Part shown: positions 4,969 through 59,651 of the stretch, one piece after another
How the letters are laid out: each line of letters starts with the position of its first letter
How positions within the stretch are numbered: position 1 is the first letter of the stretch
Assembly (NCBI RefSeq): GCF_030811715.1
Contig: NZ_JAUSRH010000001.1
Span: forward strand, 310,001-374,000
Direction: 5' to 3'
DNA length: 64,000 nucleotides
From: Sinomonas atrocyanea
Lineage (GTDB): Bacteria > Actinomycetota > Actinomycetes > Actinomycetales > Micrococcaceae
Program-made: the position numbers and the translations under genes
The notes under the pieces: generated by a model
The model's database searches: none
Told to the model about the DNA's origin: nothing
Seen by the model: the letters and a program-made list of their open reading frames with translations, nothing else

Positions 4969-5114
4969 GGTGAGGGGTCACCTCCGCACCGTTGAGGAGC
5001 CACCTCCGCACCGGTGAGGGGTCACCTCCGCACCGGTGAGGGGTCACCTCCGCACCGTTGAGGAGCCACCTCCGCACCGTTGAGGAGCCACCTCCGCACC
5101 GTTGAGGAGCCACC
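4969..5114. repeat. Tandem array of 22-bp intergenic repeats (locus 1)
   Basis: Six full 22-bp units plus a partial seventh, in the order variant b, a, b, b, a, a, a. Variant a has core TTGAGGAGCCACCTCC and variant b GTGAGGGGTCACCTCC; both end CGCACC. All units have one orientation. The array fills the space between the marR-type gene and the lipoprotein gene. There are no unique spacers, so it is not CRISPR. Confidence 0.9.
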
Positions 5115-5163
5115 GAAGCGCCGAGCCGTGGGACAGTGGAGGCAACGCGGTCGGAGGGAAGCC

Positions 5164-5694
5164 ATGCGGTTCATCGGTCATCTCGTGGTCCCGGCAATGC
5201 TCGGGCTCGCTGCCACAACCTTGCTCCTCGCCGCCTGCTCCACGGGGCCACAGCGCCCGTCGGGAGCCAGCCCTTCGGAGCCGTCGGCGACGTCGGCGCC
5301 CTCGGCTGGCCCGTCGGGCTCAGCGCCATCCAGCGCCGCCGGCCGCACCCCGGGTGCGATGACGGCGGAACTGCAGGTCGTCGTCGTGCGCTCCCCCGGA
5401 GAGCCCGAACAGCGGTGGACGCTTCGCTGCTCCGGCGCCGAGGTGCTCCCGGGAAGCACCCATCCCACCGGGGCCGCGGCCTGCGCCCTCATCGCTGCCC
5501 GCCCCGAGGTCCTCTCGCCGCCGCCCAAGGACCAGCTGTGTACCCAGCAATATGGCGGCCCCGAGGTGGCCACGGTGACGGGAACGGTGAAGGGGACGCC
5601 AGTGGACCGGCGCTTCAGCCGTACCGATGGCTGCGGCATCTCGGCCTGGAGGATCGCGACTCCGCTGCTCGGAGCGCCCGGCGGCGCGGTCTAG
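5164..5694 (+). CDS. Lipoprotein with subtilisin-inhibitor-like (SSI) domain
   Basis: A 176-residue secreted lipoprotein. The signal peptide (residues 1-24) ends in the lipobox LLAAC with Cys25 as the lipidation site. A Ser/Pro/Ala-rich linker follows to about residue 60. The rest has the four-cysteine pattern and wording of Streptomyces subtilisin inhibitor proteins: WTLRC, THPTGAAACALI, DQLC and RTDGC. SSI proteins bind secreted subtilisin-like proteases. The secreted S8 protease 1.4 kb downstream is a possible partner, though not in the same operon. The ATG at 5164 follows GGAGGGAAGCC; the upstream frame extension runs into the repeat array and is not coding. Confidence 0.75.
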   Translation: MRFIGHLVVPAMLGLAATTLLLAACSTGPQRPSGASPSEPSATSAPSAGPSGSAPSSAAGRTPGAMTAELQVVVVRSPGEPEQRWTLRCSGAEVLPGSTHPTGAAACALIAARPEVLSPPPKDQLCTQQYGGPEVATVTGTVKGTPVDRRFSRTDGCGISAWRIATPLLGAPGGAV

Positions 5695-5832
5695 CCCCGT
5701 CCCTTCCTGCCCACGGTGGAAGGACGCCCGGCGAGCCGGAGCGGGACACGCCGCCCGGAAGCCGCTCGGCCCGGCCAAACCGGTCAGGAACGGACACCGT
5801 CAGCCCGAGGTGCGGGCCGCGGTCGCTCGGGG

Positions 5833-5838
5833 GATAAT
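5833..5838 (+). promoter_or_regulatory. -10 box of the gene at 5845 (leaderless)
   Basis: GATAAT, then six bases, then ATG. No ribosome site is present. Confidence 0.6.
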
Positions 5839-5844
5839 TGACCG

Positions 5845-6792
5845 ATGCCCTCCCCAGCTCCTCGCCCCGTCGCGTCCGTGCGCGCCGCCCTGGCGCAGGA
5901 CGAGTGGCTCCCGCGCGCCCGGGCCCACTCCACTCGGGCAGCACGGTTCGCCGAGCCGTTCGTCGCCCGGCGCAATGCGCGCGAGAAGCACCCCATCGAG
6001 GACTTCCTCTTCACGTACTACACCCACAAACCCGGACAGCTCGGCCGCTGGCACCCGGGCGCCGGGATCGCACTGGTGGGCGACGCCGCGCGGGAACGCC
6101 TGGGCTGGAAGCACTACCGTGCCCTCACCCATGACGAGCGCGCGGCGGCAGGCCTTGCGGAAGAGGACACGGCCGTGGTGCTCGACCTGTCCGCCTACGC
6201 CGCCGAGCGGGAGGAGACGATCCGGTTCTGCGGGGTCATCCTGCGCGGGACCGCGGCGAGGCCCGCACAGTTCGGATGCTTCGGACTGCACGAGTGGGCC
6301 ATGGCGTACCGGAGCGAGAAGTTCGGGATCCGGCACGAGTACCTCCCGCTGCGGCTCGGGGCGGAGGGGACAGATCGGGTCGTCGAGGAGCACCGCATCC
6401 GCTGCACGCACTTCGACGCGTTCCGCTTCTACTCCCCGGACGCAGTGCCGCTCAATGAGCTCCAGCCCACCCGCGCCGCGCAGCGGGACCTCGAGCAGCC
6501 CGGGTGCCTCCACGCCAATATGGACCTCTACAAGTGGGCGTACAAGCTCGGCCCCGCCGTCCCGGGCGAGCTGCTGATGGACTGCTTCGAGCTCGCCTGG
6601 CGCGTGCGGACCATGGACATGCAGGCCTCCCCCTACGACCTCTCGGACTGGGGCTTCGAGCCCATCCCCATCGAGACGCCGGCCGGGAAGGCCGCGTATG
6701 TCGAGGCCCAGCGCGGGTTCGCCTCAGAGGCGTCGGCGCTGCGGGAGCGGCTCACCGCTGCGCTCGCACCCCTGGAAGCCGTCCTCGCCTGA
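5845..6792 (+). CDS. Conserved actinobacterial protein, often annotated 3-methyladenine DNA glycosylase
   Basis: A 315-residue soluble protein. From memory it matches a family widespread in Actinobacteria that is commonly labelled 3-methyladenine DNA glycosylase. I see no helix-hairpin-helix-GPD or other known glycosylase motif, so the enzymatic label is doubtful. Conserved-looking stretches are HPIEDFLFTYYTHKPGQL, FGCFGLHEWAMAY, CTHFDAFRFYSP and the C-terminal NMDLYKWAYKLGP, which is followed by MDCFELAWRVRTMDMQ. These are rich in Asp, His and aromatic residues, as in an active site. A GATAAT box six bases before the ATG indicates a leaderless transcript and fixes the start. Confidence 0.75.
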   Translation: MPSPAPRPVASVRAALAQDEWLPRARAHSTRAARFAEPFVARRNAREKHPIEDFLFTYYTHKPGQLGRWHPGAGIALVGDAARERLGWKHYRALTHDERAAAGLAEEDTAVVLDLSAYAAEREETIRFCGVILRGTAARPAQFGCFGLHEWAMAYRSEKFGIRHEYLPLRLGAEGTDRVVEEHRIRCTHFDAFRFYSPDAVPLNELQPTRAAQRDLEQPGCLHANMDLYKWAYKLGPAVPGELLMDCFELAWRVRTMDMQASPYDLSDWGFEPIPIETPAGKAAYVEAQRGFASEASALRERLTAALAPLEAVLA

Positions 6793-6827
6793 GGCGGCCC
6801 GGGATTGCACGGTCGCACGGCGGCCGC

Positions 6828-6938
6828 GTTGGAGCTGGCTCCTCACACGGCGGACGTGGCTCCTCAACACGGCGGAGGTGACCCCTCAACACGGCGGAGG
6901 TGACCCCTCAACGCGGCGGAGGTGGCTCCTCAACGCGC
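6828..6938. repeat. 22-bp intergenic repeat array (locus 2)
   Basis: Five units in the reverse orientation to locus 1 (core GGAGGTGACCCCTCAAC, with GGAGGTGGCTCCTCAAC variants), period 22 bp. It lies between two convergent genes, just before the protease terminator hairpin. Confidence 0.88.
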
Positions 6939-6982
6939 ACTGCCCCGCAGCGTCCGTCTCGCGACGGCTGCTGCGGGGCAGT
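6939..6982. terminator. Terminator hairpin after the S8 protease gene
   Basis: Perfect 13-bp arms ACTGCCCCGCAGC / GCTGCGGGGCAGT with an 18-base loop, 57 bases past the end of the minus-strand protease gene. Confidence 0.7.
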
Positions 6983-7038
6983 CCTGGGTGCGGTGAGGTG
7001 GGCCGGGGCCCGAGCTGGCCGAGCCCCGGGTCAGCGGA

Positions 7039-10179: not shown

Positions 10180-10659
10180 GCGATGAGACCTTTCACTGGG
10201 GCGATGTGACTTCCGCCACGGGCGGAATGACACCCAAGCTACCCGAATCGACTGCTTCACACCAGTAATTCTCCAGCTTCGTCACGGGCGGTTCACAGTG
10301 CTGTCACAGGCTTGTGGGGAGAATGCTCGCAGTCTCCGGGGCAACTCCCGGATGGGTTATAACGAAAGCAAGATGTGAGCTATTTATCGGGCGCTTTTGC
10401 CCTAGCGCCGGAGTATATTTCTGGGTACTTCTTCAGTCCTCATCAGTACGACGACGACATGGGAGGCACAGGCAGCGAGGGATGCAGACGCCGGAACACC
10501 GCAGCTGGGCTGAAGGCCTCGAGCCCCGAGCGGTCCGGATCCGAAGAGGCCGGATTTCACGTCAATCACTCAACAGAAAACCAGATGCCAACGAGGGGCG
10601 CGCCAGTGACGGCGCGCCCCTCTCTCTGTGCGATCCCGCTCTTGTGCGATTCCGCGCCG
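10180..10659. other. 480-bp intergenic region with an AT-richer patch
   Basis: No convincing gene. It must hold the promoter of the protease on its left. The part 10330-10440 is clearly richer in A/T than the surroundings (TTATAACGAAAGCAAG, CTATTTATCGGGCGC, GTATATTTC). It is followed by about 150 bases ending in a strong hairpin, so a non-coding transcript on the + strand is possible. Short + strand frames starting near 10460 and 10482 lack ribosome sites and recognisable products. Confidence 0.5.
10593..10622. terminator. Terminator hairpin with T-rich tail
   Basis: 12-bp arms GAGGGGCGCGCC / GGCGCGCCCCTC, loop AGTGAC, followed on the + strand by TCTCTGTG. It can serve the minus-strand YchJ gene, which ends at 10660, and any + strand transcript from 10.3-10.6 kb. 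Confidence 0.75.
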
Positions 10660-11076: not shown

Positions 11077-11086
11077 GGTCCCCAGA

Positions 11087-12871: not shown

Positions 12872-12877
12872 TAGAAT
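12872..12877 (+). promoter_or_regulatory. -10 box of the purSQL operon
   Basis: TAGAAT, 38 bases before the purS start codon and upstream of its CAGGAG ribosome site. Confidence 0.5.
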
Positions 12878-19871: not shown

Positions 19872-19966
19872 GTTGAGGGGTCATATCCCTGCGCTGAGGG
19901 GTCACATCCCTACGTTGAGGGGTCACATCCCTGACCGTTCAACGCAGGGACATGACCCCTCAACCA
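19872..19966. repeat. Variant intergenic repeat array (locus 3)
   Basis: Three direct units with core TTGAGGGGTCACATCCCT (about 21 bp period), then one inverted unit (AGGGACATGACCCCTCAAC), so the end can fold into a hairpin. It lies between the dehydrogenase start and the amylase stop, six bases from the amylase stop codon. Confidence 0.85.
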
Positions 19967-19971: not shown

Positions 19972-22900
19972 TCAGCCCGAGACGATGGTGACGAGGTGCG
20001 TCGTCGGGTCGTAGCGGAAGGCGAGCGGGCCGCCCGGATGGTCGAAGCCGATGTTCGGCCCGTTGAGGGCCCCGTTGGTCCCGTAGTTCACGTCCCACGA
20101 CCCGTTGAGCGCGGCCTTGAACGAGTACGAACCGGCGGGCAGCGAGGCGAGCTTCAGGATCCAGCCCTGCGAGCGCTGGTCCCACGAGGCCGCCGTGGCC
20201 GTGCACGCCGGGTCCCAGTCGGCCGCACAGCCGGCGAGGTGCTGGTATGTGCCCGGGAAGTTCACCGCGGAGGGCTGGCTGGCCGGCTGGCCCGCCGAGA
20301 CCAGGTGGGTCGAGTCGTTGTAGCTGAAGACGACGGTCCCGCCGGGATGGTCGAGGGAGATATTCGGCCCGTTCGGCGCCCCACCCGCACCATAGTTGAC
20401 GTCCCAGGACTTGTTGAGCGCCGCCTTGTACGAGTAGCTGCCCTGCGGGAGCGTGTAGGTCCCGCGCCAGACCCCCTGCGCGGGATCGAACGCAAGCTGC
20501 GCCTGCGGGCAGGCGGGCTGCCAGTCGGCCGGGCAGCCCATGGCGGTGTTGAGCGTCCCTGCCACCGCTACCGCGGAGGGCTGGGCGGCGTGCTCGCCGA
20601 CGGTGGTCTCGTGGGTGTCCTGCCGGTACGTGAAGGTGAGCCGGCCCCCCGGGTGCTTGAGTGTGATGTTCGCGCCGTTCGCCGCTCCCCCGTCGCCGTA
20701 GTTCTGGCTCCAGGACCCGTTGAGCGCCGCCTTGAACTGGTAGGTGCCGGTCGGGAGGTCGAGGGTGAGGCGCCACTCGGATGCGATCGGGTCATACTGC
20801 GCCATGGTGGCCTGGCATGCGGGGTCCCAGTCGCCGGGGCAGCCGGCCAGGTGCTGGAAGTCGCCGGCCACGGTCACCGAGAGCGGCTGCGGGGCCGGGC
20901 CCTTGGGCGCGTCCGGGTCGACCGGCGTGGGCACGACGGCGGAGACGGTCGCCGAGGTGGCCGTGTGCCCGGCGTTGTCGAGCGAGACGGCCCGGTATTC
21001 GAGCGGGGTCCCCGGCGTCATGCCCTTGGTGGCGTCGAAGACCTGGTACGGGTAGGTGTCATCGGTGCCGATGCTGTGCCACTGGCCGGCGGCTCCCGCG
21101 GCACCGGGGACCCGGGCCTGGAACGTGACCTCGTAGAACGAGTCGTGTGGGAGGTCCGCGGTGACGTTGACGCGGGTGTTGTCCCCGCCGGCCGCGGTCG
21201 GGGTGCCGAGGGTCGGCACGGGGGCAGCCGCCGAGTCGGGGATGCGGCCCGCGGACTCGTAGACCACCGCGGAGAATGCCGGGACCGTCACCGTCAGCGT
21301 CTTGTCCGCTGCAGTCTTGAGCCGGTCCCCTGCGCCGGCGCCGAACACCTTCGCGAACGGGCGCTGGGCGATGTACGTGGGCACGGCCGCCGTGCGGGCG
21401 GCGGCGGTGTTGTTCAGGGCGACGACGTATTCGCGCTGGGCCTTCGCATCGATGCGCGAGAACGCGTACACGCCGGCCGTCGTCTCGGCGTACCGGTCCT
21501 GGTGGGCGCCGGTGCGCAGGGCCGGATTGTCCTTGACCACCTTCGCGAGGTCCGCGATCGAGGTGTAGAGCGGGTGCGTGGTGACGTAGTTGTCCGAGGC
21601 GTGCGTCGCCGTCGTGCCCAAGAGCGGATCTGCGAGGTATTCGGGGGTCTTCGAGGCGAACATGTCCTGCCGCGCGAGCTGGTCCCCGCCGGTGCCGGTG
21701 AAGCCCTGCTCGTCGCCGTAGTAGACGATCGGGTTGCCGCGGGAGAAGTACATGAGCTCGTTGGCGAGCCTGTCGCGGGCCACCTTCTCGGCGTCGGACG
21801 CCGTCGGGTTGTCCTGGTCGATGAAGGACCCGATGCGGCCCATGTCGTGATTCCCGAGGAACGTGGGGAGCTGGTAGACGTTCGAGGTCGCGGTCGTGTA
21901 CCAGTCGTCGCCCTGGAAGAGCTTCTGCAGGGTGGTGGCGGGCGAGGACGCCGAGGCGTAGGAGCGTGCCGCCTGCTGGAACGGGAAGTCGAGGACGGCC
22001 TGGACGCCGTCGGACGTGGTGAACTTCGACGTGAAGTCGCGCGAGGTGTCGTAGACCTCGCCGAACATGAAGAAGTCCTTCTTCCCGACCGAGTGGGCGT
22101 AATCGAGGATCGCGGGCGAGAACTTCTGCCAGAACGCGTCGTTGACGTGCTTCATCGTGTCGATCCGGAAGCCGTCGATCCCGAAGTCGCCGATCCACTT
22201 CTTGTACACGTCGATGAAGCCGTTGAGGACCTTGGGGTTCTCGGTGAAGAGGTCGTCCAGGCCCGAGAAGTCGCCGTAGTTGGCGCTCTCCCCCGCGAAC
22301 GTCGAGTCGCCGCGGTTGTGGTACAGGCTCACGTCGTTGAGCCAGGCGGGCACCTTGGCGTTCTCCTCGCCGGCCGGGATGTACGGGCGGTACGGGAACG
22401 ACGTGGCCGGGTCCAGGGCCGGGAATCCCGGCTGGTCGGCGACCGCGGCGTCGTCGAACGTCTTCCCCGAGGCGTACTTGTACGGGGCGGCGGTCTTGCT
22501 CAGGTAGGGCATCCGGCCGCCCTCCTGGTACTTGATGACGTCCGCGGTGTGGTTGGTGATGATGTCGAAGTAGACCTTCATGCCGCGCGCGTGCGCCTGG
22601 CTGATCAGGTTCCCGAGCTCGGCATTGGTGCCGAGGTGCGGGTCGATCTGGGTGAAGTCCGTGATCCAGTACCCGTGGTACCCGGCGCTGTGGTCCTCGG
22701 GCTGGACGGCCTTGTTCTTGAAGCTGGGGGTGAGCCAGATGGCGGTGGTGCCCAGCCCCTGGATGTAGTCCAGCTTGCCGGTGAGTCCCTTGAGGTCGCC
22801 GCCGTGGTAGAAGCCCTTGTTGGCCGCGTCGAAGCCGGAGACCATCGGGGCGGAGCCCAGGCCGCCCTGGTCGTTGGCGGAGGTCCCGTTCGCGAAGCGG

Positions 22901-23109
22901 TCCGTCATCACGAAGTAGTAGTTCTCGGTGCCCGCCGCGGTGCGGAACGAGTGGGTCGCCGCGGGGCCGGCGTCGGGCGACGGCGGCGGGGCGGCTGTGG
23001 CGGCTGTCGCACCTCCGAGGGCGAGGGCGGCGGCGAGGACGACGGCGGTGCTGGCCGCCCTCGCCCTCGGCATGCGGGCTGGGCGCGGGCAGACAGGGCG
23101 GTACCGCAT
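19972..23109 (-). CDS. Secreted alpha-amylase (GH13) with three C-terminal X25-like modules
   Basis: A 1045-residue exported glycoside hydrolase. The signal peptide (residues 1-40) ends ATAA. The GH13 barrel carries DIITNH, nucleophile Asp317 (GFRIDTMKH), acid Glu351 (MFGEVYD) and Asp422 (FLGNHD). A beta-sandwich and an Fn3-like domain follow. From about residue 745 there are three tandem repeats of roughly 95 residues. Each has a GCxxDWxPAC start, an LxxGxYxxKAALNxSWxxNYG core and an HPGGxxxFxY end, as in pullulanase X25 modules. The paired cysteines in each suggest a disulfide. Role: extracellular starch or maltodextrin hydrolysis. CTGGAGG precedes the ATG. Confidence 0.95.
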   Translation of the reverse strand: MRYRPVCPRPARMPRARAASTAVVLAAALALGGATAATAAPPPSPDAGPAATHSFRTAAGTENYYFVMTDRFANGTSANDQGGLGSAPMVSGFDAANKGFYHGGDLKGLTGKLDYIQGLGTTAIWLTPSFKNKAVQPEDHSAGYHGYWITDFTQIDPHLGTNAELGNLISQAHARGMKVYFDIITNHTADVIKYQEGGRMPYLSKTAAPYKYASGKTFDDAAVADQPGFPALDPATSFPYRPYIPAGEENAKVPAWLNDVSLYHNRGDSTFAGESANYGDFSGLDDLFTENPKVLNGFIDVYKKWIGDFGIDGFRIDTMKHVNDAFWQKFSPAILDYAHSVGKKDFFMFGEVYDTSRDFTSKFTTSDGVQAVLDFPFQQAARSYASASSPATTLQKLFQGDDWYTTATSNVYQLPTFLGNHDMGRIGSFIDQDNPTASDAEKVARDRLANELMYFSRGNPIVYYGDEQGFTGTGGDQLARQDMFASKTPEYLADPLLGTTATHASDNYVTTHPLYTSIADLAKVVKDNPALRTGAHQDRYAETTAGVYAFSRIDAKAQREYVVALNNTAAARTAAVPTYIAQRPFAKVFGAGAGDRLKTAADKTLTVTVPAFSAVVYESAGRIPDSAAAPVPTLGTPTAAGGDNTRVNVTADLPHDSFYEVTFQARVPGAAGAAGQWHSIGTDDTYPYQVFDATKGMTPGTPLEYRAVSLDNAGHTATSATVSAVVPTPVDPDAPKGPAPQPLSVTVAGDFQHLAGCPGDWDPACQATMAQYDPIASEWRLTLDLPTGTYQFKAALNGSWSQNYGDGGAANGANITLKHPGGRLTFTYRQDTHETTVGEHAAQPSAVAVAGTLNTAMGCPADWQPACPQAQLAFDPAQGVWRGTYTLPQGSYSYKAALNKSWDVNYGAGGAPNGPNISLDHPGGTVVFSYNDSTHLVSAGQPASQPSAVNFPGTYQHLAGCAADWDPACTATAASWDQRSQGWILKLASLPAGSYSFKAALNGSWDVNYGTNGALNGPNIGFDHPGGPLAFRYDPTTHLVTIVSG

Positions 23110-49068: not shown

Positions 49069-49095
49069 CGCTGCAGGGACATGACCCCTCAACGC
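49069..49095. repeat. Single variant repeat unit (locus 4)
   Basis: TGCAGGGACATGACCCCTCAACG, given in two parts: TGCAGGGACATGACC and CCTCAACG. It is the same unit as the inverted copy at 19940-19965. It lies between DUF503 and the downstream MpaB gene. Confidence 0.7.
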
Positions 49096-50612: not shown

Positions 50613-50830
50613 GGGTTCCTCCAGCGAAACGGCCGGACGCCCGCGGTCCCGGGCGCCGTACTTGCCGCGGATGGCCACCGCGGCCGGATCCTCATCTGGG
50701 GCACCCCACTACGGGAGAGGGTTGCCGCCCGGCCAGCCAGAGCTTCGCGCCGGGACTCTTGATCCTGTCTTCCACCCTACGGAAGGCGGCTCCGTGGAGT
50801 CCACCATCCGTCGCGGGAGCGGGAAACAGA

Positions 50831-50904: not shown

Positions 50905-51003
50905 GTGACCATCCCGAGCGGCCGAGAGATCTGGCTCCGTGACGCCGCAGCAACCATGGCCCTCTGCAGAGGACCACAGGTGCTACCGCCAGGACCGATG
51001 GAG
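50905..51003 (+). ncRNA. SAM-I (S-box) riboswitch upstream of acetyl-CoA synthetase
   Basis: It contains the S-box core in order: ACCATC (P1), GAGCGGCCGAGAGAT, GACGCCGCAGCAACC, GGTGCTACCGCC and GATGG (P1 closing strand). P2 is GCGGC/GCCGC. The closing strand GATGG ends ten bases before the ATG and abuts the weak ribosome site GAGCGAGAG, so ligand binding could hide the start of translation. The core is nearly identical to the copy at 56201. Confidence 0.88.
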
Positions 51004-51011
51004 CGAGAGCC

Positions 51012-52991
51012 ATGACTTCTGTCCTTGAACCGCACACGCCCGCCCACGCGCTGGCATCCCACGCGCTGCCGCCGAAGACCCAGACGGATCCCGCCCGGAT
51101 CGCGTTCTGGGAGGACGCCGCGCGGCGCCTGACGTGGGAGCGCGAGTGGGACGCCGCCCACACGTGGGTCCCGGCGGACCTCGAGGCGGACGAGCCTCCG
51201 GTGATCCGCTGGTTCGAGGGCGGGCGCCTCAACGCGGCCGTGAACTGCGCCGACCGGCACGTGGCGGCCGGGCGCGGGGACAAGGTCGCCCTGCACTTCG
51301 AGGGCGAGCCGGGCGACCGCACCACCGTCACGTACGCGGACCTGCAGCGGCGGGTCTCCCAGGCCGCCAACGCGCTGCTCGCGCTCGGGGTCGGCAAGGG
51401 CGACCGCGTGGTGGTCTACCTGCCCGTGCTCGTCGAGACCGTGGTCATCACCCTCGCGTGCGCCCGGATCGGCGCGGTCCACTCGCTCGTGTTCGGCGGC
51501 TTCTCCGCCGAGGCCCTGCGCTTCCGGGTCGAGGACACCGGCGCCAAGCTGCTCGTCACCACGGACGGCCAGTACCGCCGTGGCAAGGCCGTGCCGGTCA
51601 AGGACAACGCCGACGCCGCGGTGCGCGGCGGGGCGGAAGGCGGGGACAACGCCGTCGAACATGTCCTGGTGATCAGGCGGACCGGTTCCGAGATCGCGTG
51701 GACGCCGGGCCGCGACGTGTGGTGGCACGAGCTCGTCGACGCGCAGCCCGAGGTGCATGTGGCGGAGGCGTTCGACGCCGAGACGCAGCTGTTCATCATG
51801 TACACGTCCGGGACCACGGGGAAGCCGAAGGGCCTGGTCCACACGACCGGCGGCTACCTCACGCAGGCGTCGTGGAGCCACGAGTACCTGTTCGCCAACC
51901 CGGACCCGGCGCTCCGCGACGCGGACGTGCACTGGTGCACGGCGGACCTCGCGTGGGTCACGGCGCACACGTACGAGATCTACGGGCCGCTCTCCAACGG
52001 TGTCACCCAGGTGATCTTCGAGGGCACCCCCAACACGCCGCACCCGGGCCGGCACTTCGAGATCATCCAGCGCTACGGCGTCACGAGCTACTACACCGCG
52101 CCCACGCTCGTGCGCTCGCTCATGGGCTGGTTCCCGGATGGGGTGCCCGCCGAGTACGACTTCTCCTCGGTCCGGGTCTGCGGCACGGTCGGGGAGGCCG
52201 TGAACCCCGAGGCGTGGCGGTGGCTGCGCTCCACCGTGGGTCGCGGAGAGGTGCCGATGGTGGACACCTGGTGGCAGTCCGAGACCGGCGCGACCGTGCT
52301 CTCGCCGCGGCAGACCGACGCCGCGTTCAAGCCCGGGTGTGCCACGAGGGCGCTGCCGGGCCTCGCCACGGCGATCGTGGACGACGCCGGCACGCCGGTC
52401 GCGCCGGGCGTGCAGGGGAACATCGTGGTCACCGCGACCGGCCCCGCGATGGCGCGGACGGTGTGGGGCAACCCCCAGCGGTACCTCGACTCCTACTGGC
52501 GCAAGTACGCCGAGCAGGGCTGGTTCCTCGCCGGCGACGGCGCGAAGTACGACGCCGACGGCGACACCTGGATCCTCGGCCGCACCGACGACGTCCTCAA
52601 CGTCTCGGGGCACCGCCTCTCCACGATCGAGATCGAGTCGGCCCTCGTCTCGCACCCGGCCGTGGTCGAGGCCGGCGTGTGCCCCGTCGCGGATGCGGTG
52701 ACGGGGCACGCGGTGGCGGCGTTCGTCGTCGTGAATCCGGAGGCGGTCGCGGCGGTGGAGCGGCGCGGGGACCTCGCGGAGGAGCTCCGTGCCCACGTAG
52801 CGCGGGAGATCGGGCCGATCGCGAAGCCGCGGGAGATCGTCGTGGTGCCGGATGTGCCCAAGACGCGCTCCGGGAAGATCATGCGCAGGCTCCTGACGCA
52901 GCTGTTCGAGGGCAGCCCGCTGGGGGACACGACGAGCCTGCAGAACGAGCCGTGCATCGCCGGGATTGCGGAGGCCTTGGCCGCCCACTGA
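51012..52991 (+). CDS. acsA: Acetyl-CoA synthetase (AMP-forming)
   Basis: A 659-residue ANL enzyme making acetyl-CoA from acetate, ATP and CoA. The P-loop is YTSGTTGKPKGLVHTTGGYL. Other markers are WVTAHTYEIYGPL, VDTWWQSETGA, GWFLAGDGAKYD, GRTDDVLNVSGHRLST and the acetylatable Lys in KTRSGKIMRR. Length and motifs are full Acs. It is directly preceded by a SAM-I riboswitch, unusual for this enzyme. It might act on a sulfur-containing or short acid, or have been placed by duplication under sulfur control. A repeat array follows the stop. Confidence 0.94.
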   Translation: MTSVLEPHTPAHALASHALPPKTQTDPARIAFWEDAARRLTWEREWDAAHTWVPADLEADEPPVIRWFEGGRLNAAVNCADRHVAAGRGDKVALHFEGEPGDRTTVTYADLQRRVSQAANALLALGVGKGDRVVVYLPVLVETVVITLACARIGAVHSLVFGGFSAEALRFRVEDTGAKLLVTTDGQYRRGKAVPVKDNADAAVRGGAEGGDNAVEHVLVIRRTGSEIAWTPGRDVWWHELVDAQPEVHVAEAFDAETQLFIMYTSGTTGKPKGLVHTTGGYLTQASWSHEYLFANPDPALRDADVHWCTADLAWVTAHTYEIYGPLSNGVTQVIFEGTPNTPHPGRHFEIIQRYGVTSYYTAPTLVRSLMGWFPDGVPAEYDFSSVRVCGTVGEAVNPEAWRWLRSTVGRGEVPMVDTWWQSETGATVLSPRQTDAAFKPGCATRALPGLATAIVDDAGTPVAPGVQGNIVVTATGPAMARTVWGNPQRYLDSYWRKYAEQGWFLAGDGAKYDADGDTWILGRTDDVLNVSGHRLSTIEIESALVSHPAVVEAGVCPVADAVTGHAVAAFVVVNPEAVAAVERRGDLAEELRAHVAREIGPIAKPREIVVVPDVPKTRSGKIMRRLLTQLFEGSPLGDTTSLQNEPCIAGIAEALAAH

Positions 52992-52999
52992 GGGGACGG

Positions 53000-53102
53000 T
53001 CGCTGACTCCGCAACGCGACGGAGCTGACTCCTAGACCCGACGTAGGTGACTCCCCAACCATTCGCGTTGAGGAGTCACCTCCGCACCGTTCAGGAGTCA
53101 CA
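53000..53102. repeat. 22-bp intergenic repeat array, head-to-head (locus 5)
   Basis: Two or three units in the GGTGACTCCCCAAC orientation (52999-53060), then two in the opposite TTGAGGAGTCACCTCC orientation (53067-53102), separated by ATTCGC. The opposed halves can form a long hairpin between the convergent acs and the gene at 53098. Confidence 0.85.
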
Positions 53103-53595
53103 TGAGGCGTCCCGGGATCACCCCGGTGCGGGCCATCAGGGCCGAATCCTCCTCGTGGCGCCGGCGCAGCCGGGCGTCGATCTCGGCGGACGCCCGCACC
53201 TGCCCCACGAACCATGCCCAGCCCGCGCGCAGCGCCCGGGTGAGCTGGCCGAAGTCGGGCAGGCCGAGCAGGTCTCCGGAGGTGTCCGGGAGGGACGTGG
53301 GCGGAACCAGGTCGCGCGCTGTCTGTTCCCGATCCGCGGCGAGCGGGAGGCGGGCGGCCGACGGCGGGTTCGTGGCCGCCGTCGTGCGCGCCGCGGCCGC
53401 TGCGGGTACGGGGTGAGGACGGCGCGCGGGCCTGCGCTCGGCGGGGCGGAGCGGGTGGGCGAGCCGCTCGTGGACGGGCGAGCCGGCGCGGTCCGCGGCA
53501 TCGCCGCGGCGCGCGTCGAGGGCGTGGGCGTCGGGGATCCGTGCGGCCGAGCCGTGGTCGGAGGAGGAGGGTGCGGTGCTGGTCTTCGTTGCCAT
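53098..53595 (-). CDS. Hypothetical protein (165 aa)
   Basis: A 165-residue protein. The first 90 residues are Ala/Pro/Arg-rich and probably disordered. The C-terminal part (VPPTSLPDTSGDLLGLPDF, LTRALRAGWAWFVGQVRASAEIDARL) is helical, with conserved Trp and Arg. The ATG at 53595 (MATKTSTAPSSSD) is chosen over a far longer artefactual frame. The stop lies inside the repeat array at 53098. It is divergent from the ArsR-type regulator. Family not recognised. Confidence 0.55.
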   Translation of the reverse strand: MATKTSTAPSSSDHGSAARIPDAHALDARRGDAADRAGSPVHERLAHPLRPAERRPARRPHPVPAAAAARTTAATNPPSAARLPLAADREQTARDLVPPTSLPDTSGDLLGLPDFGQLTRALRAGWAWFVGQVRASAEIDARLRRRHEEDSALMARTGVIPGRLM

Positions 53596-53676
53596 GTCCA
53601 GAAGTCTGCGCGGCCCGCACCGACTGCGAAACGATTCGGCCCTCACCGAATCCTCGACCGGGGCGGGGGCGAAACC

Positions 53677-53682
53677 TACGCT
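53677..53682 (+). promoter_or_regulatory. -10 box of the regulator at 53689 (leaderless)
   Basis: TACGCT, six bases, ATG. Confidence 0.5.
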
Positions 53683-53688
53683 GATCCC

Positions 53689-54678
53689 ATGCTGATCACG
53701 CTCACGAGCGAGGACCTCACGAAGGTCCACTTCCAGGCCTCCCCGCTCTGGGAGACGGTGACGAGCCTGCGGGCGCTGCAGGCCGGGACGCCGCTGCACC
53801 GGCCCTGGATCACCGAGGCACGCCAGCGCATCTCCGCGAGCGGCGACCCGCTCTCCCGCGAGCACCTGCGCGTCCTCACGACCCTCGTGCAGCCCAAGGG
53901 CTTCATCGCCGATTCCCTGACGCCGACCCCTACCCGGGCGGACACCTTCGCGGAGGCCCTGGACGCCGTCGCCGAGGTCCCCGCCGAGCTGTGGGCCCGC
54001 GACTTCGACAGCCTCGAGAAATGCCAGCTCGCGGGCTACATGCGGGCCACCCTCACCGAGCTGCGGGCCGACATGGAGGCCTCGGTACCCCGCATCGTGG
54101 CGGCGCTGCGCTGGTACTGGACCACGGCGCTCGAGCCCTACTGGCCACGGCTGCGCTCGGTGCTGCTCGCCGACATCGACTCGCGCCTGGACGACCTCGC
54201 GCGGTTCGGGATCCAGGAGGTGTTCAAGACCCTGCACCCGAGCGTGCGCCCCACGGACACCGGCCTGGAGATCACCCGCGGCTGCGAGGCGACGGAGCGG
54301 CCCAAGCCGGGCAGCGGCCTCATTCTCGTGCCCAACGCCTTCGTGTGGCCCAACACGCTCGTGCTCAACATCGCCCCGTTCGTCCCCACGATCACGTACG
54401 CGCCGCGGGGCGTCGGGCGACTGTGGGAGGCGACGCGGGAGACGCGCGAGTCCCCGGTCTCGCGGCTGCTCGGGCGCACGCGGGCGCAGATCCTCGCCCA
54501 GCTGGACGTGCCGATGACGACGACGCAGCTCGCCTGCGCGCTCGACCTCGCCGCCGGGACGGTCAACGCGCACCTCAAGGTGCTCGCGGAGTCGGGGCTG
54601 ACGGAGCCGGTGCGAGCCGGGCGCGAGGTGTTCTACCAGCGCGGGCGCGTGGGCGAGGAGCTCCTGGCCCGGGCCTGA
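53689..54678 (+). CDS. ArsR-type HTH regulator with long N-terminal domain (DUF5937-like)
   Basis: A 329-residue protein. The N-terminal 240 residues form an uncharacterised effector-like domain (VHFQASPLWETVTSLRAL, then DIDSRLDDLARFGIQEVFKTLHP). The C-terminal 75 residues are an ArsR-type winged helix (MTTTQLACALDLAAGTVNAHLKVLAESGL, then GREVFYQRG). Such proteins usually control an adjacent exporter, but none is next to it here. The ATG at 53689 has TACGCT six bases upstream and no ribosome site, so it is leaderless. Confidence 0.85.
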   Translation: MLITLTSEDLTKVHFQASPLWETVTSLRALQAGTPLHRPWITEARQRISASGDPLSREHLRVLTTLVQPKGFIADSLTPTPTRADTFAEALDAVAEVPAELWARDFDSLEKCQLAGYMRATLTELRADMEASVPRIVAALRWYWTTALEPYWPRLRSVLLADIDSRLDDLARFGIQEVFKTLHPSVRPTDTGLEITRGCEATERPKPGSGLILVPNAFVWPNTLVLNIAPFVPTITYAPRGVGRLWEATRETRESPVSRLLGRTRAQILAQLDVPMTTTQLACALDLAAGTVNAHLKVLAESGLTEPVRAGREVFYQRGRVGEELLARA

Positions 54679-54687
54679 CTTCTCATG

Positions 54688-54846
54688 GCGACGTAGGTGA
54701 CTCCCCAACCCGACGGAGGTGGCTCCTCAACGTGGGTCCGTTCAGGAGTCACCTCCGCCCTGTCGAGGAGTCACGTCCGCTCCGTTGAGGAGTCACCTAC
54801 GCTCCGTCGAGGAGTCAGCTACGCACCGTTGGGGAGTCAGGTCCGC
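54688..54846. repeat. 22-bp intergenic repeat array, head-to-head (locus 6)
   Basis: Two units in GGTGACTCC orientation, then about five in the opposite GGAGTCACC orientation, with several base changes (CTCCC, CAGCT, CAGGT variants). The array abuts the stop codon of the acyl-CoA-dehydrogenase-like gene at 54847. Confidence 0.88.
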
Positions 54847-56070
54847 CTAGCGGGCGCCCGCGGGCGTCGCCTCGCCGATGCTGTGCAGGGCCACGGGCGA
54901 GGTCCCGTTGACGAACCAGTCCCCCAGCCCGCGGGCCTTGAACGCCACCGGGTTGTGCGTCGCCACGGTGCGGGCGTTGCGCCAGTGCCGGTCGAGCGCC
55001 TTGCCGCGGGACACCGCGGAGGCTCCGGCCGTGTCGAAGAGCTGCTGCGCTGCGTCGATCACGAGCGGCGGCACGGCTACCTGGGCGAGGTCGACGGCGA
55101 CCGCTCCCCGCGCGTAGCGGTCCTCGGCGGAGGCGTCGGGGCCGAGCGCGAGGGCGGCGTCGAGCTCGCGGGCCGCGGCGAGCACCGAAGACTCCGCGGC
55201 GAACGACTTCGCCGCCAGCTGGCCCACGAGGTTCAGGATGAGCGGGTCCTCGCGGAACAGCTGCCCGGACCCGGTCGAGAACGTGCGGGTCCGCTTCGCC
55301 ACGAGCGCCGACGCGTCGCGCACCACGGCCTTGCCGATCCCCGCGAGCACGGACAGGAGCATGAGCTGGAGGAAGGCCGGCTCATGAGTGGTCGACTCCG
55401 TGCGCGGCACGACGTCCTCGGCCGGGATGGGCACATCGCGGAACACGGCCGTGCCCGTGCCGGTCATCTGCTGGCCGAACCCGTCCCAGTCGTCGCGGAC
55501 CTCCACGCCGGCGTGCCCGGTCGGCGCGATCGCGTACACCCTCGCCGCCGACCCCTCGGGCGAGGCCATGACGGCCACTGCGTCGGCGAAGATCGTCCCG
55601 GTCGTGTAGTACTTCTCGCCGGTGAGCAGCCACCCGCCCTCGGCCGCGGGGACGAGGCTGGTCGCCACGGTGCCGAGCGCGTTGCCGGACCGCTCGGTGG
55701 CGGCGTTGCCGAAGATCACGCCGTCGACGACGCGGCCGAACCACCGCGCGCGGAACGCCTCGTCCTGCAGCGCGATGGTCTCGACGAACGCGAAGTGCGA
55801 GCGCAGCAGGTGCCCCACCGAGGAGTCCGCCGCGGCGAGGTCGATGAGCAGCCGGACGAGGGTCTCGATGGACGCGCCGAAGCCGCCGTACTCGACAGGC
55901 ACCCGCAGGCGACCGAACCCGGTGTCCTTGAGCCACCCGACCTGCTCGAACGGCAGGTTCCTGGCCAGCTCGCGGTCGAGTGCACCCCCCTCGATCCGCG
56001 CGAAGACCGGTGCGAAGCGCTCGGCGAGCTCCACGTACGAGGCGGAACCGCCCGACGTCGTGCGTCCCAT
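54847..56070 (-). CDS. Acyl-CoA-dehydrogenase-fold flavoprotein (DszC/SfnB-like monooxygenase)
   Basis: A 407-residue protein of the acyl-CoA dehydrogenase superfamily. It is closest in style to DszC/SfnB: LPFEQVGWLKDTGFGRLRVPVEYGG, DSSVGHLLRSHFAFVE, WLLTGEKYYTTGTIFAD and HWRNARTVATHNPVAFKARGLGDW. These group-D flavin monooxygenases use reduced FMN to oxidise organosulfur compounds. The ATG at 56070 has GAGGGG upstream. It is divergent from sfnG and its riboswitch, and the flavin reductase at 50130 could supply FMNH2. Confidence 0.88.
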   Translation of the reverse strand: MGRTTSGGSASYVELAERFAPVFARIEGGALDRELARNLPFEQVGWLKDTGFGRLRVPVEYGGFGASIETLVRLLIDLAAADSSVGHLLRSHFAFVETIALQDEAFRARWFGRVVDGVIFGNAATERSGNALGTVATSLVPAAEGGWLLTGEKYYTTGTIFADAVAVMASPEGSAARVYAIAPTGHAGVEVRDDWDGFGQQMTGTGTAVFRDVPIPAEDVVPRTESTTHEPAFLQLMLLSVLAGIGKAVVRDASALVAKRTRTFSTGSGQLFREDPLILNLVGQLAAKSFAAESSVLAAARELDAALALGPDASAEDRYARGAVAVDLAQVAVPPLVIDAAQQLFDTAGASAVSRGKALDRHWRNARTVATHNPVAFKARGLGDWFVNGTSPVALHSIGEATPAGAR

Positions 56071-56368
56071 CAGTGCATTCCCCTCTCCGGCGGGCCGCCC
56101 GGCGGGCTCGCCACCGAACAGTATTCGGCGAGGCGGCCGCCCCCGCGAGTGTGACGAAATAATTTGCATCGTTACGACCCTTCCGGCCAGAATCAGACTG
56201 ACCATCCCGAGCGGCCGAGAGATCTGGATCTGTGACGCCGCAGCAACCCTGGCCCCGACGTCCGCAGACACGGCGGCGGAGCCGAAGGTGCTACTGCCAG
56301 AAGCGATGGTGAGAGCTATGGAGCCTCGGCCCGAGCCCCACGTCGCGCCCGCACGTAAGGAGCGCACT
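56071..56368. promoter_or_regulatory. Divergent promoter region of the sulfur genes
   Basis: 298 bases holding ACGAAA-N11-GTTACG at 56154-56176 and the SAM riboswitch at 56201. The bases 56311-56368 link the riboswitch to the sfnG start and contain AAGGAG. Confidence 0.6.
56201..56310 (+). ncRNA. SAM-I (S-box) riboswitch upstream of sfnG
   Basis: P1 ACCATC/GATGGT, then GAGCGGCCGAGAGAT, GACGCCGCAGCAACC and GGTGCTACTGCC in S-box order, P2 GCGGC/GCCGC. The P3/P4 region is longer than in the copy at 50905. It lies 58 bases before sfnG, so transcriptional or ribosome-site control of the sulfur operon is expected when SAM is abundant. Confidence 0.92.
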
Positions 56369-57562
56369 ATGTCCTTGTCTGGGATCGACCTCGAGACCCC
56401 GCTGAAGTTTGCCTACTGGGTCCCCAACGTCTCCGGCGGCCTCGTCGTCTCGACCATCGAGCAGCGGACCAACTGGGAGTTCGAGTACAACCGGAAGCTC
56501 GCCCGCATCGCGGAGAACTCGGGCTTCGAGTACGCGCTGACGCAGACCCGCTACGCCGCGAGCTACGGCGCGGACAAGCAGCACGAGGCCACCTCGTTCA
56601 GCCTCGCGCTCCTGCTGGCCACCGAGCGGCTCAAGGTCATCTCGGCCGTGCACCCGGGCATGTGGCACCCGGGGGTGCTCGCGAAGTTCATCATCACCGC
56701 GGACCACCTCTCCGGCGGCCGCGCGGCTGTGAACGTCGTCTCCGGGTGGCTCAAGGACGAGTTCGTGAACTTCGGCCTCGAGTGGCTCGAGCACGACGAG
56801 CGGTACGTCCGCACCGAGGAGTTCATCGACGTCCTCCGCGGCCTGTGGACGCAGAAGGAGTACTCGCAGTCGGGCAAGTACTACAACATCTCCGACTTCA
56901 CCCTGAACCCCGCCCCGGTGGACGTCCCGGGCCGCGCGCACCCGGAGATCTTCTTCGGCGGCAACTCGACGGCCGCGCAGGCCGCCGCCGGCCGCACCGC
57001 GGACTGGTACTTCTCCAACGGCCGCGACATCGAGGGCTTCAAGGAGAACATCGCCGGCGTCCTGGCCGCCGCGCAGCACGGGCGCACGGCCCCCGCCGCC
57101 CCGCGCTTCGGCCTCAACGGCTTCGTGATCGCCCGCGGCACGGAGAAGGAGGCCCAGGACACGCTCCGCGAGATCATCGCCAAGGCGCACCGGCCTGCCG
57201 TCGAGGGCTTCGCCGCCGCGGTCAAGGAGGCCGGCCAGTCCACCAAGGACGGCAAGGGCATGTGGGAGGACTCGACGTTCGAGGACCTCGTCCAGTACAA
57301 CGACGGCTTCCGGACCAAGCTGATCGGCACCCCCGAGCAGATCGCCGAGCGGATCGTCGAGTACAAGAAGATCGGGGTGAACCTCTTCCTCACCGGCTAC
57401 CTGCACTTCCAGGAGGAGCTCGAGGCGTTCGGCCGCGACGTCCTCCCGATCGTGCGCGAGCTCGAGGCGGACCTCGCCCGCGCCCACGGCACGGAGCTGC
57501 GCACGGACCTCCTGCCGGTGACGAACTTCAGCTCGCCCGACCTCGCCGGGGCGAGCGCCTGA
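56369..57562 (+). CDS. sfnG: LLM-class flavin monooxygenase, dimethylsulfone monooxygenase SfnG
   Basis: A 397-residue FMN-dependent TIM-barrel monooxygenase. It carries FAYWVPNVSGGLVVSTIEQR, SAVHPGMWHPGVLAKF, GRAAVNVVSGWLKDEFVNFG and FFGGNSTAAQAAAGRTADWYF. These agree with SfnG, which cleaves dimethylsulfone to methanesulfinate with reduced FMN during sulfur starvation. AAGGAG is seven bases before the ATG at 56369. The stop overlaps the next start as TGATG, and the gene is first in a three-gene operon under the SAM-I riboswitch. Confidence 0.9.
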   Translation: MSLSGIDLETPLKFAYWVPNVSGGLVVSTIEQRTNWEFEYNRKLARIAENSGFEYALTQTRYAASYGADKQHEATSFSLALLLATERLKVISAVHPGMWHPGVLAKFIITADHLSGGRAAVNVVSGWLKDEFVNFGLEWLEHDERYVRTEEFIDVLRGLWTQKEYSQSGKYYNISDFTLNPAPVDVPGRAHPEIFFGGNSTAAQAAAGRTADWYFSNGRDIEGFKENIAGVLAAAQHGRTAPAAPRFGLNGFVIARGTEKEAQDTLREIIAKAHRPAVEGFAAAVKEAGQSTKDGKGMWEDSTFEDLVQYNDGFRTKLIGTPEQIAERIVEYKKIGVNLFLTGYLHFQEELEAFGRDVLPIVRELEADLARAHGTELRTDLLPVTNFSSPDLAGASA

Positions 57563-58929
57563 TGGCGGAGCGCCAGTTCGGCTTCCGCACCCGCGCCCTG
57601 CACGCCGGCGGAACGCCCGACGCCGAGCACGGCGCCCGGGCTGTCCCCATCTACCAGTCGACCTCGTTCGTGTTCAAGGACTCGGACGACGCCGCGAACC
57701 TCTTCGCCCTGCAGAAGTACGGCAACATCTACTCGCGCATCGGCAACCCCACCGTCGCGGCCTTCGAGGAGCGCATCGCCTCGCTCGAGGGCGGCATCGG
57801 CGCGGTCGCGACGAGCTCGGGCATGGCCGCGGAGTTCATCACGTTCGCCGCGCTCACCCAGGCCGGGGACCACATCGTCGCCTCCTCCAAGCTGTACGGC
57901 GGCACCATCACCCAGCTCGACGTGACGCTGCGCCGGTTCGGGGTCGAGACCACGTTCGTGGACTCGACCGACCCGGCCGCGTTCAGGGCGGCCCTGCGCG
58001 AGAACACCAAGGCCGTGTACACCGAGGTGGTGGCCAACCCCTCCGGCGACATCGCCGACCTGGCCGGCCTCGCCGCCGTCGCCCATGAGCACGGCGTGCC
58101 GCTCGTGGTCGACTCGACGCTCACGCCGCCGTATATCCTGCGGCCGATCGAGCACGGGGCGGACATCGTGATCCACTCCGCCACGAAGTTCCTCGGGGGC
58201 CACGGCACCACGCTCGGCGGCGTGGTGGTCGAGTCCGGCACGTTCGACTGGGGCAACGGCAAGTTCCCCTCCATGACCGAGCCGGTGCCCAGCTACGGCA
58301 ACGTCTCGTGGTGGGGCAACTTCGGCGAGTACGGGTTCCTCACCAAGCTGCGCTCCGAGCAGCTGCGCGACATCGGCCCGTCCCTGTCCGCGCAGTCCGC
58401 GTTCCAGCTCCTGCAGGGCCTCGAGACGCTCCCGCAGCGCATGGACAACCACCTCGCCAACGCCCAGCGCGTCGCGGAGTGGCTCGAGGCCGACCCGCGC
58501 GTCACCTACGTGAACTACGCCGGGCTGCCCTCGCACCCGCAGCACGCATACGCGAAGGAGCTCCTCCCCCTCGGCGTGGGCTCCGTGTTCAGCTTCGGGG
58601 TGAAGGGCGGCCGCGAGGCCGGGGCCCGGTTCATCGAGGCGCTCCAGCTCGCCTCGCACCTGGCCAACATCGGCGACGCGCGCACCCTCGTGCTGCACCC
58701 GGGGTCCACCACCCACCAGCAGCTCTCCGCGGACCAGCTCGTCGCGGCGGGTGTCCCGGCGGACCTCATCCGCCTCTCCGTGGGGCTCGAGGACGTCGAG
58801 GACATCATCTGGGACCTGGACCAGGCGCTCGCCGCCTCGCAGGAAGTGGTGCAGCTCGAGCAGGAATTCGCGGCCCCGACGTACGACGGCGAAGCGTGCT
58901 CCCTGCCCGTGAAGGGAGCGAAGAAGTGA
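57562..58929 (+). CDS. O-acetylhomoserine sulfhydrylase-type PLP enzyme
   Basis: A 455-residue Cys/Met-metabolism PLP enzyme. The lysine is in HSATKFLGGHGTTLGG and the phosphate loop is SSGMAAEFI. It also has YGNIYSRIGNPTVAAFE, VVDSTLTPPY and HPGSTTHQQL. The size and these motifs fit O-acetylhomoserine or O-succinylhomoserine sulfhydrylase (MetY/MetZ) or methionine gamma-lyase; the first is favoured by the 455-residue length and the riboswitch. It overlaps sfnG by one base and the next gene by four, so the three are coupled. Confidence 0.92.
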   Translation: MAERQFGFRTRALHAGGTPDAEHGARAVPIYQSTSFVFKDSDDAANLFALQKYGNIYSRIGNPTVAAFEERIASLEGGIGAVATSSGMAAEFITFAALTQAGDHIVASSKLYGGTITQLDVTLRRFGVETTFVDSTDPAAFRAALRENTKAVYTEVVANPSGDIADLAGLAAVAHEHGVPLVVDSTLTPPYILRPIEHGADIVIHSATKFLGGHGTTLGGVVVESGTFDWGNGKFPSMTEPVPSYGNVSWWGNFGEYGFLTKLRSEQLRDIGPSLSAQSAFQLLQGLETLPQRMDNHLANAQRVAEWLEADPRVTYVNYAGLPSHPQHAYAKELLPLGVGSVFSFGVKGGREAGARFIEALQLASHLANIGDARTLVLHPGSTTHQQLSADQLVAAGVPADLIRLSVGLEDVEDIIWDLDQALAASQEVVQLEQEFAAPTYDGEACSLPVKGAKK

Positions 58930-59435
58930 GCGCCATCGGAACGACAGAACCGGCGCGCACGTGGGTGGGTCCCTCCGCCCCCGAGCGCCTGAGGATCCTG
59001 CGGGAGACGAAGGTCATCGCGATCGTCGGTGCCTCGGACAAGCCGAGCCGCGCGAGCTACTTCGTGGCCACGTACCTGCTCTCGTCCACGAAGTACCGCG
59101 TGTACTTCGTCAACCCGGTCGTGAAGACCATCCTGGGCCAGCCGGTCTACGCCTCGCTCGCGGAACTGCCCGAGACGCCGGACCTCGTCGAGGTGTTCCG
59201 CCGGCACGATGACCTCCCCGGCGTGCTCGAGGAGGCCAAGGCCGTGGGCGCCAAGACCATCTGGCTCCAGCTGGGCTCGTGGCACGAGGGGGTCGCGGCG
59301 GACGCCGAGGCCGCCGGCCTGAACGTGGTCATGGACCGCTGCGTGAAGATCGAGCACGCGCGCTTCCACGGCGGCCTGCACCTCGCGGGCTTCAACACGG
59401 GGGTCATCTCGAGCAAGCGCCAGGTCCTCGCCTAA
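58926..59435 (+). CDS. CoA-binding domain protein (YccU-like)
   Basis: A 169-residue Rossmann protein. It has KVIAIVGASDKPSRASYF, VYFVNPVVKTILGQPVYASLAEL, AKTIWLQLGSWHEG and VMDRCVKIEHARF. These match the CoA-binding family (PF02629-like/YccU), function unknown. The GTG at 58926 overlaps the previous stop as GTGA. It is commonly found behind MetY-type genes in Actinobacteria, which suggests a sulfur role. A paralogue is at 62619. It ends at the hairpin at 59479. Confidence 0.9.
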   Translation: MSAIGTTEPARTWVGPSAPERLRILRETKVIAIVGASDKPSRASYFVATYLLSSTKYRVYFVNPVVKTILGQPVYASLAELPETPDLVEVFRRHDDLPGVLEEAKAVGAKTIWLQLGSWHEGVAADAEAAGLNVVMDRCVKIEHARFHGGLHLAGFNTGVISSKRQVLA

Positions 59436-59478
59436 ACGTCTCGGGTACACATCTCGTCGCGGTTTCGCCCTTTCGGGT

Positions 59479-59527
59479 ACGACGCCGGCCGGTCGCCTTC
59501 GCGCAGAAGGTGGCCGGCCGGCGTCGT
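59479..59527. terminator. Terminator hairpin after the sulfur operon
   Basis: Long arms ACGACGCCGGCCGG...CCTTC / GAAGG...CCGGCCGGCGTCGT around GCGCA, with two mismatched pairs. It has the same design as the hairpins at 3817 and 61164. Confidence 0.8.
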
Positions 59528-59651
59528 CTGACTCCTCAGGGCGACGTAGCTGACTCCTCGTGGCGACGTAGGTGGCTCCTCAACACTGCGGAGGTGACTC
59601 CTCAACCGAGCGGAGGTGACTCCTCAACACTGCGCAGGTGACTCCTCAACG
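59528..59651. repeat. 22-bp intergenic repeat array (locus 7)
   Basis: About five and a half units in one orientation (core GGAGGTGACTCCTCAAC, early units with GTAGCTGACTCC), period 22 bp, directly following the terminator hairpin. Confidence 0.88.

Follow-up and report, generated by a model that had tools for sequence, protein, structure and literature searches.

Dispersed intergenic repeats of no known cause are common in bacteria, and to our knowledge the best explained case is that of the repetitive extragenic palindromes (REPs) and the REP-associated tyrosine transposases (RAYTs). According to one source, RAYT genes invariably lie between two REPs in inverted orientation (PMC2817692), and the unit of a RAYT gene and its flanking REPs is named a REPtron in two others (PMC3733652, PMC8266576). 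Here we describe a comparable arrangement in the actinobacterial genus Sinomonas, starting from short tandem repeat arrays in a 64-kb stretch of DNA (the window; C1:310001-374000) of the genome G000 (4.23 Mb, 27 contigs). The arrays are built of a 22-bp type A unit, TTGAGGAGTCACCTCCGCACCG, or a 21-bp type B unit, TTGAGGGGTCATGTCCCTGCGT, and we propose that they are the dispersed part of a REPtron-like system, in which an AbiEi/DUF559-type nuclease maintains and rewrites its own repeats genome-wide; we hold this to be probable, with considerable room for doubt. The likeness to REP/RAYT REPtrons is that a gene is flanked by inverted repeats, here at 28 of 30 Sinomonas loci, and, as with REPtrons and bacterial interspersed mosaic elements (BIMEs), that many intergenic copies are dispersed in both orientations and the repeats are specific to an enzyme lineage. 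In contrast, the enzyme here is a predicted AbiEi/DUF559 (Vsr-type) nuclease and theirs is a Y1 HUH transposase, and our repeats form either long hairpins or tandem arrays whose units mostly measure 13 to 32 bp. The GTAG tag that stands beside the palindrome in the RAYT-linked class of REPs is absent from the consensus of types A and B and of a further 19-bp type; some A units do contain CGTC, which is not a fixed tag there.

A sequence-only reading of the window had claimed short tandem arrays dispersed between genes, and these proved real when the units were re-read at all array positions and compared to shuffled sequence. With up to three mismatches, the window holds 25 matches to the A unit (17 nt) and 4 to the B unit (19 nt), compared to shuffle means of 0.31 and 0.02, respectively. 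The search across the genome and its relatives that this reading had recommended found copies well beyond the window. G000 contains 159 units matching TTGAGGRGTCAYNTCC within one mismatch, in about 50 arrays, with no match to a reversed control pattern; 11 of 15 Sinomonas genomes carry 6 to 159 copies each, while none was found within one mismatch in G001, G006, G013 and G014. Across 280 other genomes of the family the counts were 0 to 8, mostly similar to the control, and stretches with at least two exact units were all from Sinomonas among the matches listed from the genome collection. The G000 arrays that were read consist of A units, B units or mixtures, in which each unit retains its own spacing, and a third period, of 19 bp, was found in S. 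cellulolyticus and ASV486.

A 307-aa gene that is single-copy and lies outside the window (L042; G000:C3:528212-529135) stands between inverted A arrays, and a single-copy paralogue whose product is 62% identical (L061; G000:C11:131181-132104) stands between inverted B arrays. Homologues of this nuclease (E 1e-10 or better) gave 53 matches covering all 15 Sinomonas genomes, and 30 of these 53 loci were fetched and examined. Repeats were present on both sides at 28: tandem arrays detected by Tandem Repeats Finder (TRF) at 20, arrays or long hairpins recognized by reading at six (L187, L194, L198, L203, L205 and L209), and inverted matches between the flanks at two (L206, 22 nt; L207, 15 nt). 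The type of flanking repeat varies by clade, being either arrays of mostly 13- to 32-bp units or hairpins. An inverted match of at least 12 nt between the flanks was found at 23 of the 30 loci; as a control, none of 29 ordinary genes of the window had one.

The layout extends beyond the genus. Outside the genus, homologues were found with E 1e-25 or better in 74 of 118 genomes of the order (G000 excluded). When the best loci of 28 genomes outside the genus were analyzed, an exact inverted match of at least 14 nt between the 300-bp flanks was present at 12 of 28, compared to 0.5% of 756 cross pairs, and one of at least 12 nt at 15 of 28, compared to 2.4% of the cross pairs. Four of six hits in named records were read, from three Arthrobacter plasmids and one Tsukamurella plasmid; all four have repeats on both sides, with longest exact inverted matches between 400-bp flanks of 15, 10, 22 and 23 nt. 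The bracketed layout recurs in other actinobacterial families.

Another shared feature within Sinomonas is TTATCCACA, which lies within 160 bp upstream of the nuclease gene at 28 of the 30 loci (L181-L210); as background, the motif occurs three times in 307 kb of sequence from G000 that itself includes nuclease loci. The motif presumably resembles a DnaA box, and one might speculate that it hints at replication-linked expression. Outside Sinomonas it was found at only 6 of 28 loci and is not universal, and it was rejected as a general part of the system.

The repeat unit is paired with the resident nuclease. Units track the nuclease tree, in which the A pair and the 19-bp group each form a clade (support 100/100), and at one syntenic place (L190, L191 and L196-L201) the unit is, depending on the species, CGACGAGTGG..., GTTGTGGGGTCTCGTCC..., TTGAGGAGTC... 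or GTTG[TA]GGGGTC[TC]CTGG.... Among the 15 Sinomonas genomes, the A-clade nuclease was found in G000 and G002 only; these contain 65 and 49 A units, compared to 0 to 5 in the other 13 (controls 0 to 3 over all genomes). G014 has no TTGAGG units and 95 copies of the unit of its own nuclease, compared to 8 for the reversed control, and elsewhere in the genus the G014 unit gave no match in G000 and 0 to 3 in the others, G007 and G012 aside. The 19-bp unit, with up to two mismatches, has 58, 13 and 12 matches in the carriers of the 19-bp nuclease (G004, G010 and G011, respectively) and up to 19 matches, mostly B units, in other genomes; with no more than one mismatch, the matches listed were 22, 10 and 9 in the carriers, 7 in G009, 1 in G008 and none in the rest. 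The 19-bp test is supportive, although less sharp than the A-unit and G014 tests. In other families, the unit of the G365 locus has 25 copies in that genome and 0 to 1 in 11 others, and the unit of the G298 locus has 23 copies there, 9 in its genus-mate G316 and none in 10 others. Because the repeats change with the nuclease gene from species to species, the data suggest that their spread and their rewriting are the work of the enzyme.

Consistent with rewriting in place, the same gene ends carry different units in different species. Each of the 19 arrays or units examined in G002 shares its gap with an array of G000 (with a single unit at L033). Of 20 arrays examined in G014, 9 adjoin gene ends that carry an A or B array in G000, among them the window arrays at 6828-6934 and 52996-53111; this fraction compares two sets of sites found with different units, since the G000, G002 and G014 stretches were each fetched by their own units. 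Sites were matched by BLAST at E 1e-30, with pieces longer than 250 bp and 700 bp in total, and at these thresholds the other 11 G014 arrays had no counterpart among the G000 stretches examined. Three of the nine matches are loose: the gaps at L274 and L286 have a different or longer far side, and L272 of G014 has one array and no such gene at the place where G000 (L068:2992-3902) and S. atrocyanea have a regulator-like gene between two inverted arrays. Because the loci of other species were fetched as bearing units, the share of conserved sites among them is biased upwards. An A array of G000 corresponds to a B array elsewhere at window 54668-54850, L064, L058, L039 and window 4970-5123, and at the orthologous site L116/L080 the unit length is 19 versus 21 bp. 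One clean array-free site was identified, where an array of about 65 bp in L116 is absent in L080, and at this one site no target duplication was evident; L089 versus L039 was not clean as an empty site and was not used.

The position of the arrays bears on the possibility that they are host-selected transcription-end or chromosome-structure elements, homogenized by ordinary recombination, with the nuclease genes merely lying between them. Among 48 arrays of at least two units, 19 lie in convergent gaps, 21 in tandem gaps, 3 in divergent gaps and 5 "inside" genes, as classified with a crude home-made gene caller that is itself the source of these five placements; the 168 background gaps comprise 46 convergent, 89 tandem and 33 divergent ones. 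Of the 19 convergent-gap arrays, 17 have a predicted stop codon no more than 20 bp away. By orientation, 20 of the 48 are one-directional, 16 turn from minus to plus and 12 from plus to minus, in line with the sequence-only reading, which had noted orientation switching and a position next to gene ends. That reading had also named a transcription-end element as one option, and the position just past stop codons fits it, as does the recurrence of sites between species; the option leaves the nuclease linkage and the change of unit unexplained. In particular, a host element does not account for the bracketing of 28 of 30 homologues at five syntenic groups plus several single sites, for units that follow nuclease clades, or for the abundance of A units only in the two genomes with an A nuclease. 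We consider the host-element explanation possible and rather unlikely.

The products of the two bracketed genes (proteins A and B) are predicted nucleases. Against Pfam DUF559 (PF04480; cut-off 20.6 bits), protein A scored 21.9 bits, over the cut-off, and protein B 18.2 bits, under it; matches to MTES_1575-REase and DUF2726 were weak and below the Pfam cut-offs, as was a match of protein A to AbiEi_1 (PF09407), and neither protein had a match in NCBIfam. An AlphaFold model based on an alignment of 29 sequences had a mean predicted local distance difference test (pLDDT) score of 91.1. Its best Foldseek fold match in the PDB was the AbiEi antitoxin 6y8q (E 1.5e-3), followed by the catalytic domain of I-Bth0305I (3r3p; E 7.2e-3, TM-score 0.75 on the target). 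Residues E207, H255, H256 and D265 do not vary among the 29 aligned proteins and D239 hardly varies; the conservation of E207, H256, D265 and D239 suggests that the nuclease has been kept. The model and the family matches lead us to predict that the protein combines a Vsr/DUF559-type endonuclease with a winged-helix part resembling AbiEi. A distant paralogue (L259; G000:C1:147600-151600) adjoins, by eye, a tRNA-like sequence, and fragmentary copies appear as partial matches at L204 (G005:C1) and G004:C1:2603369-2604096; such fragments suggest that these genes have been lost as well as kept.

EDxHD enzymes such as I-Bth0305I are presented as homing endonucleases with long targets in one source (PMC3943268). 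The protein studied here is similar to this Vsr-like enzyme in the predicted fold of the catalytic domain and in the joining of a nuclease to a DNA-binding part. It differs in that its gene is free-standing and its presumed target uninterrupted: if the repeat unit is taken as the target, the gene does not interrupt it, as an EDxHD homing gene does, but has intact units on both sides. The likeness to AbiEi, the antitoxin of a type IV toxin-antitoxin system, consists of the best, if modest, fold match and the sub-cut-off PF09407 match of protein A. AbiEi binds inverted repeats, as stated in PMC3985639; the AbiEi-like part here is fused to a nuclease domain.

An alternative is domestication: the protein would be a nucleoid protein or a DNA-binding regulator, the arrays would be its operators, those at the two ends of its gene serving autoregulation, and its nuclease fold would be unused on the arrays. 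The units would then vary together with the protein, as binding sites do with their regulator; in addition, the arrays abut gene ends, and periods of 21 to 22 bp correspond to about two helical turns. PMC3985639 further describes AbiEi winged-helix proteins as binding inverted repeats at their own promoters. Nevertheless, arrays also lie on the 3' side of the gene, divergent (promoter) gaps rarely hold arrays (3 of 48, compared to 33 of 168 background gaps), and the invariance of E207, H256 and D265 in 29 of 29 proteins, with D239 nearly so, suggests a kept nuclease. Although it is plausible that the arrays are protein-binding sites, another option of the sequence-only reading, we regard this regulator explanation as possible but unlikely, with a small yet real chance of being right.

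Vsr-like nucleases act in DNA repair, and a role in defence can also be considered, in which the nuclease would attack foreign DNA and the arrays would mark self DNA or titrate the enzyme on it. Dispersed copies that track a nuclease are a feature of no defence system known to us. We find this role quite improbable, even with AbiEi described as an abortive-infection protein in PMC3985639.

A further alternative is a classical REP/BIME family with its RAYT, or the ends of insertion sequences resembling miniature inverted-repeat transposable elements (MITEs). Bracketing inverted repeats together with dispersed copies are the REPtron layout, as given in PMC2817692 and PMC3733652, and the suggestion that the window repeats are REP/BIME-like holds for their behavior: they are intergenic, occur in both orientations and at gene ends, and bracket a dedicated gene. 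It fails for their kind, as no TnpA-REP was found and the nuclease is unrelated. The REP-associated transposase (TnpA-REP, PF01797), proposed as a check, was detected in none of the 15 Sinomonas genomes and in 5 of 14 control genomes, with other transposase families not searched genome-wide. MITEs and insertion-sequence ends are likewise short, dispersed inverted sequences; here, in contrast, in Pfam the bracketed gene has a match to DUF559 and none to a transposase family, the units are tandem, the sites recur while the unit differs, the loci occupy fixed syntenic places, and the one clean empty site showed no obvious target duplication. We judge this alternative very improbable. The accessible text of a 2025 REP survey (PMC12306157) contains no word starting with "rayt" or "nuclease" and has Arthrobacter in one table row. 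Among the openly licensed papers listed, no work linking DUF559/AbiEi-type nucleases to dispersed repeats was recognized from titles and abstract openings, which is not proof of absence.

In our best reading, then, the system is neither a member of the REP/RAYT group nor a classical homing endonuclease, and would act like REP/RAYT with a homing-type enzyme. We infer that the AbiEi-like winged-helix part would recognize the unit and that the nuclease domain would cut or nick it. The break would be repaired from another cognate array, in the gene's own flanks or elsewhere, so that units would be copied across, and this copying would add, extend and homogenize arrays; the arrays of a genome would therefore change in step with its nuclease. 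Such a system would work like a REP/RAYT REPtron in which a homing-type hydrolytic nuclease replaces the HUH transposase.

Several observations weigh against this proposal. With regard to the enzyme, the 6y8q match has TM-scores of just 0.31/0.45 and a root mean square deviation of 6.7, no PDB match of the predicted model reached E 0.001 or better, and the sequence match to 3r3p is weak (HMMER E 0.71), with the histidines unaligned. A cutter flanked by its own targets would also cut its own flanks unless it nicked, was tightly regulated or needed a special structure. With regard to bracketing, L210 has repeats on one side only, the fragment L204 has none, and at L259 a palindrome (about 57 bp) is confined to one side; 13 of the 28 loci outside the genus have no inverted match of at least 12 nt between their 300-bp flanks, and within Sinomonas such matches also occur in 11.5% of 870 cross pairs, a high rate because relatives have units in common. 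The nuclease loci form five syntenic groups, with a few more at single places, and because most loci read are at fixed chromosomal places, the genes seem not to move. As for pairing, G003 and G004 carry 4 and 5 A-unit matches, compared to 0 for the control; the G014 unit has 30 matches in G007 (control 7) and 14 in G012 (control 4), and a nuclease with this unit was not seen among the G007 and G012 loci read; and G009, whose sole nuclease has 21-bp units, has 7 matches to the 19-bp unit with no more than one mismatch.

Within the window, the first type A array (4970-5123) has seven units with a 22-bp period, all plus and the last degenerate, and starts 34 bp past the stop of a MarR-like open reading frame (ORF; 4222-4935); G002 has an array in the same gap and S. 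mesophila has 21-bp units there. Five A units, all minus, follow at 6828-6934, 38 bp past the stop of ORF 5845-6792, a gene end that carries CGACGAGTGG units in G014 instead. The A array at 52996-53111 (---++) lies 7 bp past the stop of an acyl-CoA synthetase-like ORF (51012-52991); this gene end has A units in G000 and G002 and CGACGAGTGG units in G014, and in the homologous gap of S. notoginsengisoli (L143:3440-3620) another unit, AACGCGAGGTCACC-like, forms an inverted pair by eye. At the stop of ORF 53047-54678 is an A array at 54668-54850 (---+++++), whose orthologue in S. notoginsengisoli is of type B. Six A units on the minus strand occupy 59521-59650, about 90 bp past the stop of ORF 58308-59435, and the same gap in G002 also holds an array. 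Adjoining this array is a plus-strand copy of a third unit, CGGGTACRCATCTCGTCG, at 59441-59459, unrelated to A and B; with up to three mismatches it has one match in the window, compared to a shuffle mean of 0.02, and the same unit also flanks, on either side, a distant paralogue of the nuclease (L260; G000:C2:307793-308641).

The sequence-only reading had taken type B for a variant of the 22-bp unit. Such a second sequence is indeed present, but as a separate type with a 21-bp period, at 19873-19963 (+++-), adjoining the 3' end of ORF 19972-23109(-), with orthologous arrays in L160 and L164. The supposed array at 49069 is a single B unit, at 49074-49092 on the minus strand, and a core described as nearly self-complementary is so only approximately. 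We dropped the idea that genes between two window arrays are cassettes: their ORFs are ordinary (lipoprotein-like, synthetase-like and regulator-like), and the recurrently bracketed gene is the nuclease. At the gathering threshold, Rfam matched nothing on the arrays and gave three S-adenosylmethionine (SAM) riboswitches only in the window, one SAM-IV and two SAM/S-box, within 6 kb at 50653-50764(-), 50906-51004(+) and 56199-56312(+); one of them stands directly ahead of the acyl-CoA synthetase-like ORF at 51012.

One array, compared to plasmid and phage sequences, gave 12 plasmid records and 1 phage record, best E 0.1, with no transposase named, which we take as chance; in viral contigs, 16 stretches had one exact match each to a short pattern. 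In another genus of the family, g9 (G243, G227, G259, G210, G159 and others), about 4 to 6 copies per genome of a single variant, ATGAGGAGTCATATCC, were listed, which may represent the end of an insertion sequence or a further repeat family of this kind.

The proposed system offers a candidate function for the poorly characterized DUF559/MTES_1575 REase family with an AbiEi-like part and a route to explaining orphan repeats in Actinobacteria. The natural series of nuclease-repeat pairs may make a specificity code readable, and the recurring gene-end arrays with differing units make bacterial concerted evolution directly testable. On the broadest view, to which we would give an even chance, a widespread class of actinobacterial nucleases, selfish or domesticated, drives the concerted evolution of its own target repeats genome-wide. 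The enzyme would cut cognate arrays, repair would carry units between dozens of dispersed gene-end arrays and those flanking its gene, and drift in specificity would lead to arrays being rewritten in place; this would be a bacterial counterpart of satellite homogenization and a REPtron reached by convergence without an HUH enzyme.

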